The notes beneath the pieces were generated by a model. That model saw only the letters and a program-made list of their open reading frames with translations, searched no databases and was not told where the DNA came from. Shown here in pieces: positions 21,341-25,050 of a DNA stretch of 64,000 bases. The stretch is from Dyella terrae (lineage in GTDB: Bacteria > Pseudomonadota > Gammaproteobacteria > Xanthomonadales > Rhodanobacteraceae), in the NCBI RefSeq assembly GCF_004322705.1, contig NZ_SIZZ01000001.1, positions 186,001 to 250,000 of the forward strand, read 5' to 3'. The position numbers were made by a program, and so were the translations under genes. Every line of letters starts with the position of its first letter. Position 1 is the stretch's first letter.

Positions 21341-22119
21341 ATACGCCCGTGGACGCGCTGCCGGAGGAGCGGCAGCGGTTGATCATCGAGCGTTTGCGTC
21401 AGCGAGGACGTGTTGTTGCCGTTGAGCTGGCTCGCGAGTTTGACGTTTCGGAAGATTCCATCAGACGAGATCTGCGCGAGCTCGCTGCGCAAGGTTTGTG
21501 CAAACGCGTCTACGGCGGTGCACTGCCGCTGTCTGCCGCGGTTGCTCCGCTGAAAGAGCGTCGCCAGGAAAACGTCATGCGCAAACAGGCGCTGGCGCGA
21601 AAGGCGGCGACGCTCGTGCGCGCCGGCCAGATCCTGATGATCGACGCGGGCACGACGAACTCCGCCATTGCCGCAGCCTTGCCAGACCATCTGGACCTGA
21701 CGGTGGTCACCAATGCACCGGACATCGCGCAGGTCCTGATGGAGCGGGAAGGCTTCGAGATCCTGCTCATCGGGGGGCGCATTGATCCTCGTGTGGGTGC
21801 GACGGTCGGCGCTCAGGCTCTGCAGGAAATCGAACAGATTCGAGCGGACATTTGCTTTCCTGGCGCCTGCGCCATGGATGCCGAGAGTGGCCTGTGGGGA
21901 TTCGACAGCGAGGAGACGCGGCTCAAGCGCGCCATGGTCCGTGCGTGCGGCGAAACGGTCGTGGTCGTCACGTCGGACAAAATCAACACGGTGGCCACTT
22001 ATCGCATCGCAGAGACCGCCGATGTCCAGCACATCGTCGTGGAAGGCGATACGGATGGGTCGATCGTCGCATCACTGACCGCGCGGGGACCGCAGGTGCA
22101 TCGCGCCGATGAGGGGTGA
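21337..22119 (+). CDS. DeoR/GlpR-type transcriptional repressor
   Basis: 260 residues. N-terminal DeoR winged helix (about 10-65: ERQRLIIERLRQRGRVVAVE, SEDSIRRDLRELAAQGLCKR, VYGGAL) and a C-terminal DeoRC sensor domain (LMIDAGTTNSAIAAAL, TNAPDIAQVL, GGRIDPRVGATVG), which usually binds a sugar phosphate. AGGAGG lies 8 bases before the ATG. Last gene of the MFS-HAD-DeoR operon; likely controls it and perhaps the peptide-YcaO locus that follows 114 bases later. Confidence 0.93.
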   Translation: MNTPVDALPEERQRLIIERLRQRGRVVAVELAREFDVSEDSIRRDLRELAAQGLCKRVYGGALPLSAAVAPLKERRQENVMRKQALARKAATLVRAGQILMIDAGTTNSAIAAALPDHLDLTVVTNAPDIAQVLMEREGFEILLIGGRIDPRVGATVGAQALQEIEQIRADICFPGACAMDAESGLWGFDSEETRLKRAMVRACGETVVVVTSDKINTVATYRIAETADVQHIVVEGDTDGSIVASLTARGPQVHRADEG

Positions 22120-22233
22120 TCCCTTCATGTAATGCTCATTGAGGCTTCATGTCTTGGCGTTGCGCAGCCATCGCCAGCAGCGATGATGGTTCTCGCCGCA
22201 ACGCCGCGGCGCAAACCACAAGGAGCAAGCATC

Positions 22234-22359
22234 ATGGGTTATGTCATGAGTGGCCTCTCGAACCCGCTCAATCGCGAGCAGGTCGTCAACGCCGAGGGTG
22301 TGGTGCAGGACGTGGAGTTGTCCGCCGAAGAGCTCGCCGAGCTTCAGCGACAGGATTGA
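22234..22359 (+). CDS. 41-residue peptide upstream of YcaO, candidate RiPP-type precursor
   Basis: Small gene with a good ribosome-binding site (AAGGAG, 10 bases before ATG 22234). The peptide begins MGYVMSGLSNPLNREQ and ends with an acidic amphipathic segment, VELSAEELAELQRQD. It has no Cys or Thr; Ser occurs at 6, 9 and 30. The EELAEL helix resembles recognition helices in RiPP leaders, but a classic C-terminal core is not obvious; a possible modifiable stretch is N-terminal. It is followed by a 9-bp hairpin and then the YcaO gene, the usual order of a precursor and its modifying enzyme. Longer in-frame starts (22132) lack a ribosome-binding site. Confidence 0.65.
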   Translation: MGYVMSGLSNPLNREQVVNAEGVVQDVELSAEELAELQRQD

Positions 22360-22383
22360 TGGCTGGATCCAGCCTCAGAAGGC

Positions 22384-22405
22384 AGCCCCCTCGTTCGAGG
22401 GGGCT
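22384..22405 (+). terminator. Hairpin between the peptide gene and the YcaO gene
   Basis: AGCCCCCTC (22384-22392) pairs perfectly with GAGGGGGCT (22397-22405) around a GTTC loop, 25 bases after the peptide stop. No T-run follows, so partial read-through or mRNA 3'-end protection is likely. This would give more peptide mRNA than enzyme mRNA. Confidence 0.65.
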
Positions 22406-22431
22406 CTGATGCCCGCCACGTGAGTTGCACC

Positions 22432-23637
22432 ATGTCGAATGATGTCGAGCGCGAATTCAGCCTGGACGAGGCCGAGCGTCGTATCGATCGATTTGTCCAT
22501 GCCGAGGGCTTGTCGTGGCGCCTGCGCATGCACGGTGAGCGGCACGGCGTATGCCTGGCTCGGCTCACCCGCGGGCAGGATGTCATCCATCGCGGTGCCG
22601 GCAAAGGGAAGCTTCGGTCGGCTCTCGTCGGGGGCAAATACGAAGCCGTCGAGCACTGGCTCACCGAACGCTGGGGAGGGCGCCATGCCTGCGTCGTTCC
22701 CGTGGATAAGGCCGCAGAACAGGCAACGACCGACCACCTTCCGATGGCGCTGCTGCGCGAACAGCCGGGCGCCCGGATTGCCTGCCGAACATACACCCGG
22801 CTCGGTGACGGCGCGACGACGCTTCAACCTTTGTCACTGGCTCTGCCCGGGTATGAGCGCCAGCGCCTTGCGGGTGACACCTTCGACTATCGGCATCTGC
22901 GCCGTTACGCAAGCAACAGTGGCACCGCGATGGGCGGCAACGTCGCCGAAGCGACGCTGCACGCTCTCAATGAGTGCATCGAACGTGATGCACTGTCGCT
23001 GTTCCTGCTTACCCACTTCTACTACCGCTCCGGCAGCCCCTTGCGCAGGGTCGATCTCAGCCAGGTTCCGGATGACCTTGGCGTGCTGATCGATGATATT
23101 CGCGGCATCATCGGGGCCGAGCTGGTCCTCCTCAATATCTCCACGGGTTTTGGCGTGACGACTTGCCTCGCTTTCGCGCATGCGACGTATGACGGACCGC
23201 ATGTCTATGGCGCCGGCGCGTCGCTGAGCCCCATCCACGCGGCTTTTCGGGCACTGTCCGAACTGCTGCAGGTGCACCTGGCCGTCTCGAATGGCTGGTG
23301 CGGTGACGATCTTGCACTGGCGCAAGCGTCGTTGCGTGGGTTTCCGGCGCTGTACCGTGCACTGATGTTCAGCGTGAACGCGCTCCAGGGGTCTTCCATG
23401 GAATCGGAGCGGCTCGACGGCGATGTCCGTCGGCCACTTGATCATCAGATCGAAACGATTGTCGAAGCCCTGGCCGGCCGTGGGTTTCACGCGGCTGCCT
23501 GCGTGCTTGGCGAGACGGATGAAGGGCTGGCACTCGTCAACGTCACGGTGCCGGGTTTCGAGCGCTTTTTCGTCGTGGGAAGCGGCAACGTCGTGCTGCC
23601 CGGCGGGCGTGGGAAGTTGGCAGCGCAGACGGCATGA
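22432..23637 (+). CDS. YcaO-domain protein (ATP-dependent peptide backbone-modifying enzyme)
   Basis: 401 residues from ATG 22432 (GTG 22420 is an alternative). YcaO enzymes use ATP to activate peptide backbone amides, forming azolines, thioamides or amidines. All three ATP/Mg-binding segments are recognisable: GGKYEAVEHW (E71, E74), EATLHALNECIERDA (E173, E181, E184) and PIHAAFRALSELLQ (R273, E277). The C-terminus (GGRGKLAAQTA) lacks the PxPxP motif of azoline-forming enzymes. No TfuA, ThiF-like/ocin or dehydrogenase partner is nearby. It is much shorter than E. coli YcaO (about 586). The methyltransferase gene starts 13 bases later. Confidence 0.88.
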   Translation: MSNDVEREFSLDEAERRIDRFVHAEGLSWRLRMHGERHGVCLARLTRGQDVIHRGAGKGKLRSALVGGKYEAVEHWLTERWGGRHACVVPVDKAAEQATTDHLPMALLREQPGARIACRTYTRLGDGATTLQPLSLALPGYERQRLAGDTFDYRHLRRYASNSGTAMGGNVAEATLHALNECIERDALSLFLLTHFYYRSGSPLRRVDLSQVPDDLGVLIDDIRGIIGAELVLLNISTGFGVTTCLAFAHATYDGPHVYGAGASLSPIHAAFRALSELLQVHLAVSNGWCGDDLALAQASLRGFPALYRALMFSVNALQGSSMESERLDGDVRRPLDHQIETIVEALAGRGFHAAACVLGETDEGLALVNVTVPGFERFFVVGSGNVVLPGGRGKLAAQTA

Positions 23638-23650
23638 GTGGCCGCTGGCG

Positions 23651-24556
23651 ATGTCGATAACGGATGCCGAAGCGATGCGCGCCGTCACCCATGCGGTCTC
23701 GATCGAGCATGGTTACGCCGGCTGGCATCCATGGTTCGTGCTTCGCGCGCAAGGGCAGGATTGGGTGGGTCGGCGTGCGCTCGCTGCGCCAATGAAAAGC
23801 GGGTGCGCGTTCAGCCTGGTCGATGCGAGCATGCTTCGGGGAAGGCTTCTCGCCATGTCCGCGCACGGCGGCGATCTTCATGTGGCCTATGAAGTTGCCG
23901 AACGGTCTGCCTGCGTGCGTTTCTTCAATGAGGCAGAGGCATGCAGCGATACGTCCCTGGTGTTTCCTCACCCATGCATGGCGGACGATGGCAGCGAATT
24001 TGTCGTTCCCTCGACGGCATGGGAGCCCACCGCGAGGCTGGTCGAGACACTGGATGCGGGCGAACAGCATTTTCGCGAGTTTGCCATTGCCTGCTTGCGA
24101 TCATTCGCCGGGCCGGGCTCGCTTGTTTACGATCCGGCTTGTTCGACGGGCGCATTCATCGCATCCGTGGCGCGCGCATTTCCGAATCTTCGGTGTCTGG
24201 GTTCAGACGTATCCGCGCCAATGGTGGCCCTCGCGACCGCGCGCTTTAGCGAACCGAATCTTGATTTCGCCGTCGCCTGCGCCAGTCAGCCGCGTTGTAT
24301 CGCCGGGAGTTGCGATGCGCTGATCGTGCGGTTTCTCAACGCCGAAGTCGTTACACGAAAGGAGGCGGAGGTCTACTTTCGCTCGCTGGCGACGCTGCTG
24401 CGCCGAGGTGGCCGCATGTTTGTCTTCGGGCATACGCCGGTGCTTATCAACCCCGAGGCTCATGCGGCTGAGCTTGGCTTGCGCCTGCTGGCGCGCGTGG
24501 GGCGATTACCTGGAAAAAATGCGTTGTTCCAGTTCTACATCCTGGAGGCAACCTGA
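23651..24556 (+). CDS. SAM-dependent methyltransferase with an unrecognised N-terminal domain
   Basis: 301 residues. The second half is a class I methyltransferase: motif I LVYDPACSTGAFIASVA (about 158-174), motif II Asp in CLGSDVSAPMVALA (186), and a post-core LLRRGGRMFVFGHTPVL. The first ~120 residues (GYAGWHPWFVLRAQGQDWVG, VDASMLRGRLLAMSAHGGDL) match nothing I recognise and could bind the substrate peptide. It follows the YcaO gene by 13 bases, so they are almost certainly co-transcribed. Likely methylates the YcaO product or the 41-residue peptide. A protein O- or N-methyltransferase unrelated to the peptide is the alternative. Confidence 0.8.
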   Translation: MSITDAEAMRAVTHAVSIEHGYAGWHPWFVLRAQGQDWVGRRALAAPMKSGCAFSLVDASMLRGRLLAMSAHGGDLHVAYEVAERSACVRFFNEAEACSDTSLVFPHPCMADDGSEFVVPSTAWEPTARLVETLDAGEQHFREFAIACLRSFAGPGSLVYDPACSTGAFIASVARAFPNLRCLGSDVSAPMVALATARFSEPNLDFAVACASQPRCIAGSCDALIVRFLNAEVVTRKEAEVYFRSLATLLRRGGRMFVFGHTPVLINPEAHAAELGLRLLARVGRLPGKNALFQFYILEAT

Positions 24557-24561
24557 GTGCA

Positions 24562-24597
24562 GCGAGGCGACGGTCATCGACATGACCGTCGCCTCGC
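24562..24597. terminator. Bidirectional terminator ending the YcaO operon
   Basis: Perfect 16-bp stem GCGAGGCGACGGTCAT / ATGACCGTCGCCTCGC with a CGAC loop. It lies 5 bases after the methyltransferase stop and just before the convergent DUF2147 stop. Confidence 0.8.
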
Positions 24598-24603
24598 GGC
24601 GCA

Positions 24604-25050
24604 TTATTCCTCGCGCACCCACACCTGGCTGCGGCCGATCAGCGAGAAGCCGATGTAGCCATGCACGTCGAGCTTCGTGCCGTTTTCCATGGTCTTGAGC
24701 TTGACCTTGTAGACCTTGCCGTTCTTCGGGTCGAGGATCTTGCCGCCATCCCATTCGTCGCCATCGGCCTTGACGCCCCACATGATCACCATGCCTTCCA
24801 CGGGCTGGTTCTTGCGGTCGCCGTCGCATTCCTTGCAGACCGGATGCGGACCGTCGTCGGACTGGAGCACCTTGAGCACCTTGCCTTGCAGTTCGCCATT
24901 GGTTTCGGTGATCTGCACGATGGACTTGGGCTGCTTGGTCTTGTCGTCGATGGTCTTCCAGGTACCGACCGGTGAGTTGTTGGCCGCGAACGCGGCGGCG
25001 GCGCCCAGCAACAGGCCGGTGGCGATGGCAAAGCGAAGCACTGACTTCAT
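24604..25050 (-). CDS. DUF2147 secreted protein
   Basis: 148 residues. Signal peptide MKSVLRFAIATGLLLGAAAAFA. The mature part begins SPVGTWKTIDDKTKQPKSIV and contains the C-x2-C pair CKECDGDRKNQP, GMVIMWGVK, GGKILDPKNGKVYKVKL and VHGYIGFSLIGRSQVWVR, the DUF2147 pattern. Periplasmic lipocalin-like fold; function unknown. GGGAGGA precedes ATG 25050; the frame is open further upstream without support. Confidence 0.92.
   Translation of the reverse strand: MKSVLRFAIATGLLLGAAAAFAANNSPVGTWKTIDDKTKQPKSIVQITETNGELQGKVLKVLQSDDGPHPVCKECDGDRKNQPVEGMVIMWGVKADGDEWDGGKILDPKNGKVYKVKLKTMENGTKLDVHGYIGFSLIGRSQVWVREE

Follow-up and report, generated by a model that had tools for sequence, protein, structure and literature searches.

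Following up a sequence-only reading of 64,000 nucleotides of Dyella terrae DNA (contig NZ_SIZZ01000001.1, positions 186,001 to 250,000; hereafter the window), we analyzed a three-gene cassette that encodes a short peptide, a YcaO enzyme and a transferase dependent on S-adenosylmethionine (SAM).

A three-gene insert in Dyella terrae

The cassette forms a discrete insert, roughly 2.5 kb long: in four of five congeners its flanking genes, a DeoR-family gene upstream and a convergent DUF2147 gene downstream, lie side by side with nothing of the cassette between them. The remaining congener has its DeoR gene outside the fetched stretch. The YcaO of the window has no match in those five congeners and is the single YcaO of its own genome at E 1e-15. 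The cassette is probably complete as a unit.

The first gene has a strong AAGGAG ribosome-binding site and encodes a peptide of 41 residues without Cys. It looks like the precursor of a ribosomally synthesized and post-translationally modified peptide (RiPP) in reversed layout, with a variable N-terminal core (MGYVMSGLSN...) and a C-terminal follower (...VELSAEELAELQRQD). The second gene encodes a stand-alone YcaO, in which the GKG...EAxEH, ExxERD and RALxELxQ stretches, which we take to form the ATP site, align with TruD, LynD and MJ1094. Its predicted structure (mean predicted local distance difference test score, pLDDT, 89) is closest among solved proteins to LynD and a Methanocaldococcus YcaO, and by eye its C-terminus lacks PxPxP. 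A profile search of solved YcaOs ranks MJ1094 first (E 6.9e-18), presumably of the branch that thioamidates a glycine of McrA, and the protein (P0002) also weakly matches the NCBIfam McrA model. The three-gene insert holds no gene for TfuA, an E1/ocin-ThiF protein, a dehydrogenase, a protease or an exporter. TfuA is likewise not among the genes of the insert or its two neighbors, and no E1-like/ocin-ThiF partner lies in the cassette, the rest of the genome not having been searched for one. For these two genes the observations of the sequence-only reading were borne out, including its stand-alone YcaO without the usual partners.

The third gene had been read as a methyltransferase with an unrecognized N-terminal domain, and here our assignment differs. 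Pfam and NCBIfam detect generic methyltransferase domains only, in the second half of the protein. In a phmmer search of solved structures, residues 29-299 matched isonocardicin synthase (Nat; 8zhu_A) at E 4.6e-28, and a profile of four relatives matched 8zhu at E 7.8e-43; for the next best solved chain, E was 2.4e-9 and the match began no earlier than profile position 121. The protein has the ACSTG and GHTPVLV stretches in common with Nat, and identity to 8zhu/8zhv in a structural alignment is 28%. The titles of these structures name a 3-amino-3-carboxyl transferase of nocardicin biosynthesis, and 8zhv was solved with S-adenosylhomocysteine and nocardicin G, whose phenol we take to be the acceptor of Nat. 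Judged by homology, the transferase is a member of the Nat family over both domains, the N-terminal one included. A plain methyltransferase was dropped as a candidate, since 8zhu matches both domains and the matches to the other solved chains are confined to the SAM domain. Nat-like transferases of this kind are rare. Within the order, 13 of 299 genomes match the transferase profile at E 1e-8, at full length only those of the window, G514 and G523; across the class, the window's transferase is the sole match among 369 genomes at E 1e-12; and three plasmid records carry the transferase, all in one cassette type.

Table 1. Features of the cassette, in window positions
Feature	Position	Strand	Basis
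Cassette (three-gene insert)	22120..24600	+	between DeoR-family gene and DUF2147 gene
Putative RiPP-type precursor, 41 aa	22234..22359	+	sequence MGYVMSGLSNPLNREQVVNAEGVVQDVELSAEELAELQRQD
GC-rich hairpin between precursor and YcaO genes	about 22384..22405	+	folding: 75 nt, minimum free energy -34.8, z -2.9
Stand-alone YcaO, 401 aa	22432..23637	+	Pfam PF02624, E 1.3e-35; predicted model matches solved YcaOs
Nat-like 3-amino-3-carboxypropyl transferase (by homology), 301 aa	23651..24556	+	homology to isonocardicin synthase 8zhu/8zhv
Inverted repeat, 16-bp	24562..24597	.	by eye; between convergent genes, without clear T-tract

Short peptides beside related YcaO genes

The window's family holds relatives of the YcaO in G503 (two), G514 and G523, plus two weak matches; others occur in Stenotrophomonas tumulicola and Streptomyces bluensis, and on records from Pantoea/Acinetobacter, Vibrio, Streptomyces and Nonomuraea. 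Of 326 genomes in the family of S. tumulicola, 16 carry such relatives at E 1e-15, with as many as three in a single genome. For L. capsici, PMC10745450 notes expression of a YcaO gene and three YcaO orthologues.

To find precursors, we required one short open reading frame (ORF) just upstream of YcaO that begins Met-Gly or Met-Lys-Lys and is preceded by a ribosome-binding site. Such a peptide is present in 37 of the 46 YcaO places examined (Lysobacteraceae, Pantoea and Vibrio plasmids, actinomycetes), whereas 112 of 4000 random 450-nt stretches, drawn from the window and the fetched loci with true sites included, passed the same filter, so a chance origin of the pairing is unlikely. With the residue filter lifted, no ORF other than the peptide has a ribosome-binding run of at least four bases in 25 of the 37 loci. 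These counts leave out L065 (the same locus as L019), L041 and a Pantoea eucrina record (YcaO 100% identical to L040), the weak YcaO matches L023, L024, L026, L028-L033, L037 and L038, and plasmid hits H11, H12, H14-H16 and H18-H23. The peptide, sought next to YcaO in other genomes as earlier proposed, is conserved there in relatives, so one of the refuting outcomes named with that proposal, a lack of such conservation, did not arise.

An unguided motif search over 16 representatives, one per 60% YcaO cluster and with the first two residues removed, found ELSxxELxxL-like sites with a score of 194.1, compared with a mean of 166.3 (sd 2.6, maximum 171.9) for 50 shuffled sets. The motif lies in the C-terminal half of 12 of the 16, for example as ELSAEELAEL in the window, HLTPLEAAAL in L048, QLNAQEVALL in L019, ELTGDELQQL in Streptomyces bluensis and EITADELDFL in L068. 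With this motif mostly in the C-terminal half and N-termini that otherwise vary, the peptides appear to combine an N-terminal core with a C-terminal follower, in line with the minimal YcaO RiPP-like cassette of reversed layout that had been proposed from the window alone.

Several relatives have features of their own. In the family of S. tumulicola (L067-L093), genomes hold up to three YcaO-peptide pairs whose cores differ (types MKKLIGTT, MKKAIDMP, MGNERPAV and MGTTRIDF) and whose C-terminal ends are alike. On the Vibrio plasmids L042, L043 and L094, a Met-Gly peptide and a related YcaO are directly followed by an ABC transporter gene (by Pfam for L042 and L043), so the Vibrio versions may carry their own exporter. 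In L044, a Streptomyces relative, YcaO is followed by a gene for a ThcOx/nitroreductase-type dehydrogenase.

The hairpin that had been noted after the peptide gene is present, and would serve as an attenuator or mRNA stabilizer. A hairpin 3' of the peptide stop with z -2.7 or lower recurs in 13 of the 19 loci folded (out of the 37) and is weaker in six, among them two Vibrio loci with none. Of the 16-bp terminator described at the end of the cassette, the inverted repeat stands; it is probably a shared terminator of the convergent genes, with no clear T-tract. By eye, an Mrp-like ATPase gene also lies downstream. We found no known RNA family at gathering score in 21900-24700 and no sigma-70-like promoter in 22050-24700. 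A viral or phage origin was dropped, as the window's YcaO had no match in phage records, and neither it nor the transferase had one in viral contigs. In two congeners (L107, L108), the DeoR-DUF2147 intergenic region at the empty site has a GC hairpin flanked by tandem GGGAATAG-like repeats, and insertions may occur there readily.

Tyr3 and the Nat-like transferase

The transferase follows YcaO at four loci: in the window, in G523, in G514 and on a Pantoea-type plasmid. All four peptides of these loci start with Met-Gly-Tyr, and Tyr3 occurs in none of the 33 others (Fisher test, 1.5e-5 over rows that are not truly independent, 5.5e-4 over 16 clusters). In a YcaO tree with the TfuA-adjacent L095 and L096 as outgroup, the four transferase loci do not group and the starred branches force at least three changes, although the Pantoea row sits on a long branch and its placement is unsure. 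Tyr3 goes with the transferase in all three independent pairs (sign test, p 0.25).

Among 15 genomes without a transferase beside YcaO, three had matches (E 1e-6 to 2e-9), which start at profile position 135 or later and thus cover the SAM-domain half only; at the other loci, the locus itself was the basis for calling the transferase absent, and on plasmid records the plasmid transferase search was. G503 shares an upstream M13 peptidase with G523 and G514 and has neither transferase nor Tyr3: its genome holds no transferase at E 1e-5, and its peptide begins MGLYMCYCHHLP, as compared with MGYMTRAFAHLP in G523.

In G503, a TonB-dependent receptor gene and a gene for a PKHD-type Fe(II) hydroxylase lie directly after YcaO, in the transferase's place (L045:308-3427), which may point to a role connected with iron or be a coincidence of gene order. 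On the plasmid of Pantoea sp. PSNIH1 (CP010326.1; L040:9021-9806), a gene for a FeeM-family N-acyl amino acid synthase (PF21926, E 2.8e-26) lies about 220 bp downstream of the cassette, and the gene order is the same in an Acinetobacter venetianus plasmid record.

Proposed modification and its alternatives

By a small measure, we lean towards a minimal RiPP cassette in which YcaO would cyclodehydrate the N-terminal core and the Nat-like enzyme would alkylate Tyr3. We infer the reactions of both enzymes, their order and the role of the product; for the alkylation of Tyr3, we do so from the homology to Nat together with the co-occurrence described above. The cassette would have been acquired as one unit, and the C-terminal follower helix (ELSAEELAEL) would recruit the enzymes. 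YcaOs are described in PMC7136475 as using ATP to activate backbone amides. Here, activation of a backbone amide in the N-terminal core would give a cyclodehydrated product (-18.01 Da), either an oxazoline at Ser6 or a bottromycin-like amidine involving the N-terminal amine that is exposed when Met is cleaved off. The Nat-like enzyme would move the 3-amino-3-carboxypropyl group of SAM to the Tyr3 phenol, yielding O-homoseryl-tyrosine, and functions encoded elsewhere would remove the follower and export the product. Because the transferase is a Nat homologue over both domains, the expected shift is +101.05 rather than the +14 Da of a methyl group. For the unmodified window peptide, the calculated monoisotopic mass is 4516.18, or 4385.14 once Met is lost. 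Later reactions may make use of the new amino-acid tail; for example, the FeeM-type synthase beside the Pantoea cassette could acylate the proposed new amine.

For the product of YcaO, each of two specific outcomes is unlikely when taken singly. One is a bottromycin-like macrolactamidine: after loss of Met1, the amine of Gly2 would attack an activated backbone amide a short way along the chain. The layout favors an amidine, as bottromycin is the closest known arrangement: according to PMC7136475 and PMC5103208, bottromycins have, as predicted for the cassette, an N-terminal core with a Met-Gly start, a C-terminal follower and a YcaO without a partner protein, and use Gly1 as the nucleophile; PMC5103208 instead proposes BtmI as a helper for the amidine. 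Met-Gly starts 23 of our 37 peptides, a count that depends on the selection filter. The other 14, however, start with Met-Lys-Lys, a start at which Met is normally kept. Bottromycin also differs in having two YcaOs where the cassette has one, and in lacking the Nat-like transferase; none of its genes for a radical-SAM methyltransferase, P450, amidohydrolase and M17 peptidase is in the insert, which holds no amidohydrolase or aminopeptidase gene. The window peptide (P0001) has no NCBIfam match at E up to 1, including the bottromycin precursor model NF033414, which itself matched none of 199 Streptomyces genomes and was silent in 14 control genomes too.

The other outcome, about equally probable, is an oxazoline in the core, or a thiazoline where position 6 is Cys. 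It is favored by Ser or Cys at position 6 in several loci (the window, L048, L040, L045 and three Vibrio loci; L047 has Thr5) and by the dehydrogenase of L044, of the type that usually oxidizes azolines. The azol(in)e RiPPs (TOMM/LAP) have an E1-like/ocin-ThiF partner and a PxPxP C-terminus, however, neither of which is in the cassette, and an azoline as a rule for the whole clade is disfavored by cores that lack Ser, Thr or Cys near their start. The bottromycin-like layout and the dehydrogenase of the actinomycete relative nevertheless make azoline or amidine chemistry plausible, so the earlier statement that the cassette lies outside the known azole, thioamide and amidine families was too strong.

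Rather improbable, in our estimate, is that the Nat-like enzyme acts on another nucleophile (the N-terminal amine, the Met sulfur or the YcaO product), or that it has come to transfer methyl groups. Homology sets the family and not the acceptor, and identity to the solved enzyme is 28%; against this stand the presence of Tyr3 wherever the enzyme is encoded and nowhere else among the 37 loci, and the phenol acceptor of Nat, whose structure title names nocardicin G. Least likely, and quite improbable, is thioamidation of the peptide by YcaO (+16 Da), or a YcaO whose substrate is some other protein of the cell, with the peptide as a bystander: the match to MJ1094 and the weak one to the McrA model point that way, whereas the conserved pairing of peptide and YcaO and the lack of TfuA in the cassette argue against it, the latter making cyclodehydration likelier than a thioamide.

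Several observations weigh against a core cyclized by YcaO and alkylated at Tyr3. The data set has only four transferase loci, and with three pairs the sign test cannot reach significance (p 0.25 at best). The link to Tyr3 was noticed on the first 11 loci, and the 26 added later all lack both features and bring no new positive case; it may be that transferase and Met-Gly-Tyr peptide just moved as a pair. The structural model of the transferase is poor (pLDDT 58, from three alignment rows) and serves only as a check. Peptides were picked with the help of the Met-Gly/Met-Lys-Lys filter, and nine of the 46 places have no upstream peptide: L078, L079, L080 and L089, which are weaker places of the survey in the family of S. 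tumulicola; the distant YcaOs L022, L025 and L027, the last with a Met-Gly ORF that lacks a good ribosome-binding site; and the TfuA-adjacent L095 and L096. A loose C-terminal pattern that fits all 37 peptides also fits 86 of 112 chance peptides; for that reason it was dropped as evidence and replaced by the unguided search. Four representatives, L047 (a transferase locus), L044 and the two from Vibrio, do not have the motif from that search in their C-terminal half, and with the first two residues kept, the search picked the shared N-terminal end in two of three trials. Nor do all peptides carry Ser, Thr or Cys close to the N-terminus: L046, L019, L066 and the L086 group have none at positions 5-6, and L046 and L086 none further along.

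Among known systems, the cassette is best called a member of the YcaO RiPP kind, as a variant that differs from the clusters compared here. Nat belongs to nocardicin biosynthesis and acts on nocardicin G, a non-ribosomal product; the window gene adjoins a short peptide gene and a YcaO instead. The streptamidine family (Russell et al. 2021, PMC8442711) likewise pairs a stand-alone YcaO with a short precursor and yields an amidine, but needs AmiB (E1/RRE-like, that is, resembling a RiPP recognition element, by the authors' model) and genes for a hydrolase, a dehydrogenase and an iron transporter, and has an internal core and a proline-rich AmiD C-terminus. YcaO-TfuA thioamidated RiPPs have a YcaO domain protein in common with the cassette, which has no TfuA. 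In the open-access literature, most subscription papers lying outside the search, we found no RiPP with an aminocarboxypropyl modification and no paper joining YcaO, or any RiPP, with a Nat-type transferase.

More tentatively than for the cassette itself, we propose a RiPP family guided by followers: a YcaO working without a partner would cyclize the N-terminal core, and a Nat-type enzyme would install O-(3-amino-3-carboxypropyl) on Tyr3. Ribosomal peptides would thereby receive a group that is otherwise familiar from the making of a non-ribosomal beta-lactam. If this is true, homoserine-ether tyrosine would be a new modification for ribosomal peptides, and Nat-type enzymes would accept peptide substrates. 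With two enzymes and one peptide, the system is small enough for in vitro reconstitution, and the wider clade, with up to three copies per genome and differing cores in one Lysobacteraceae group, offers a set for probing partnerless YcaOs.

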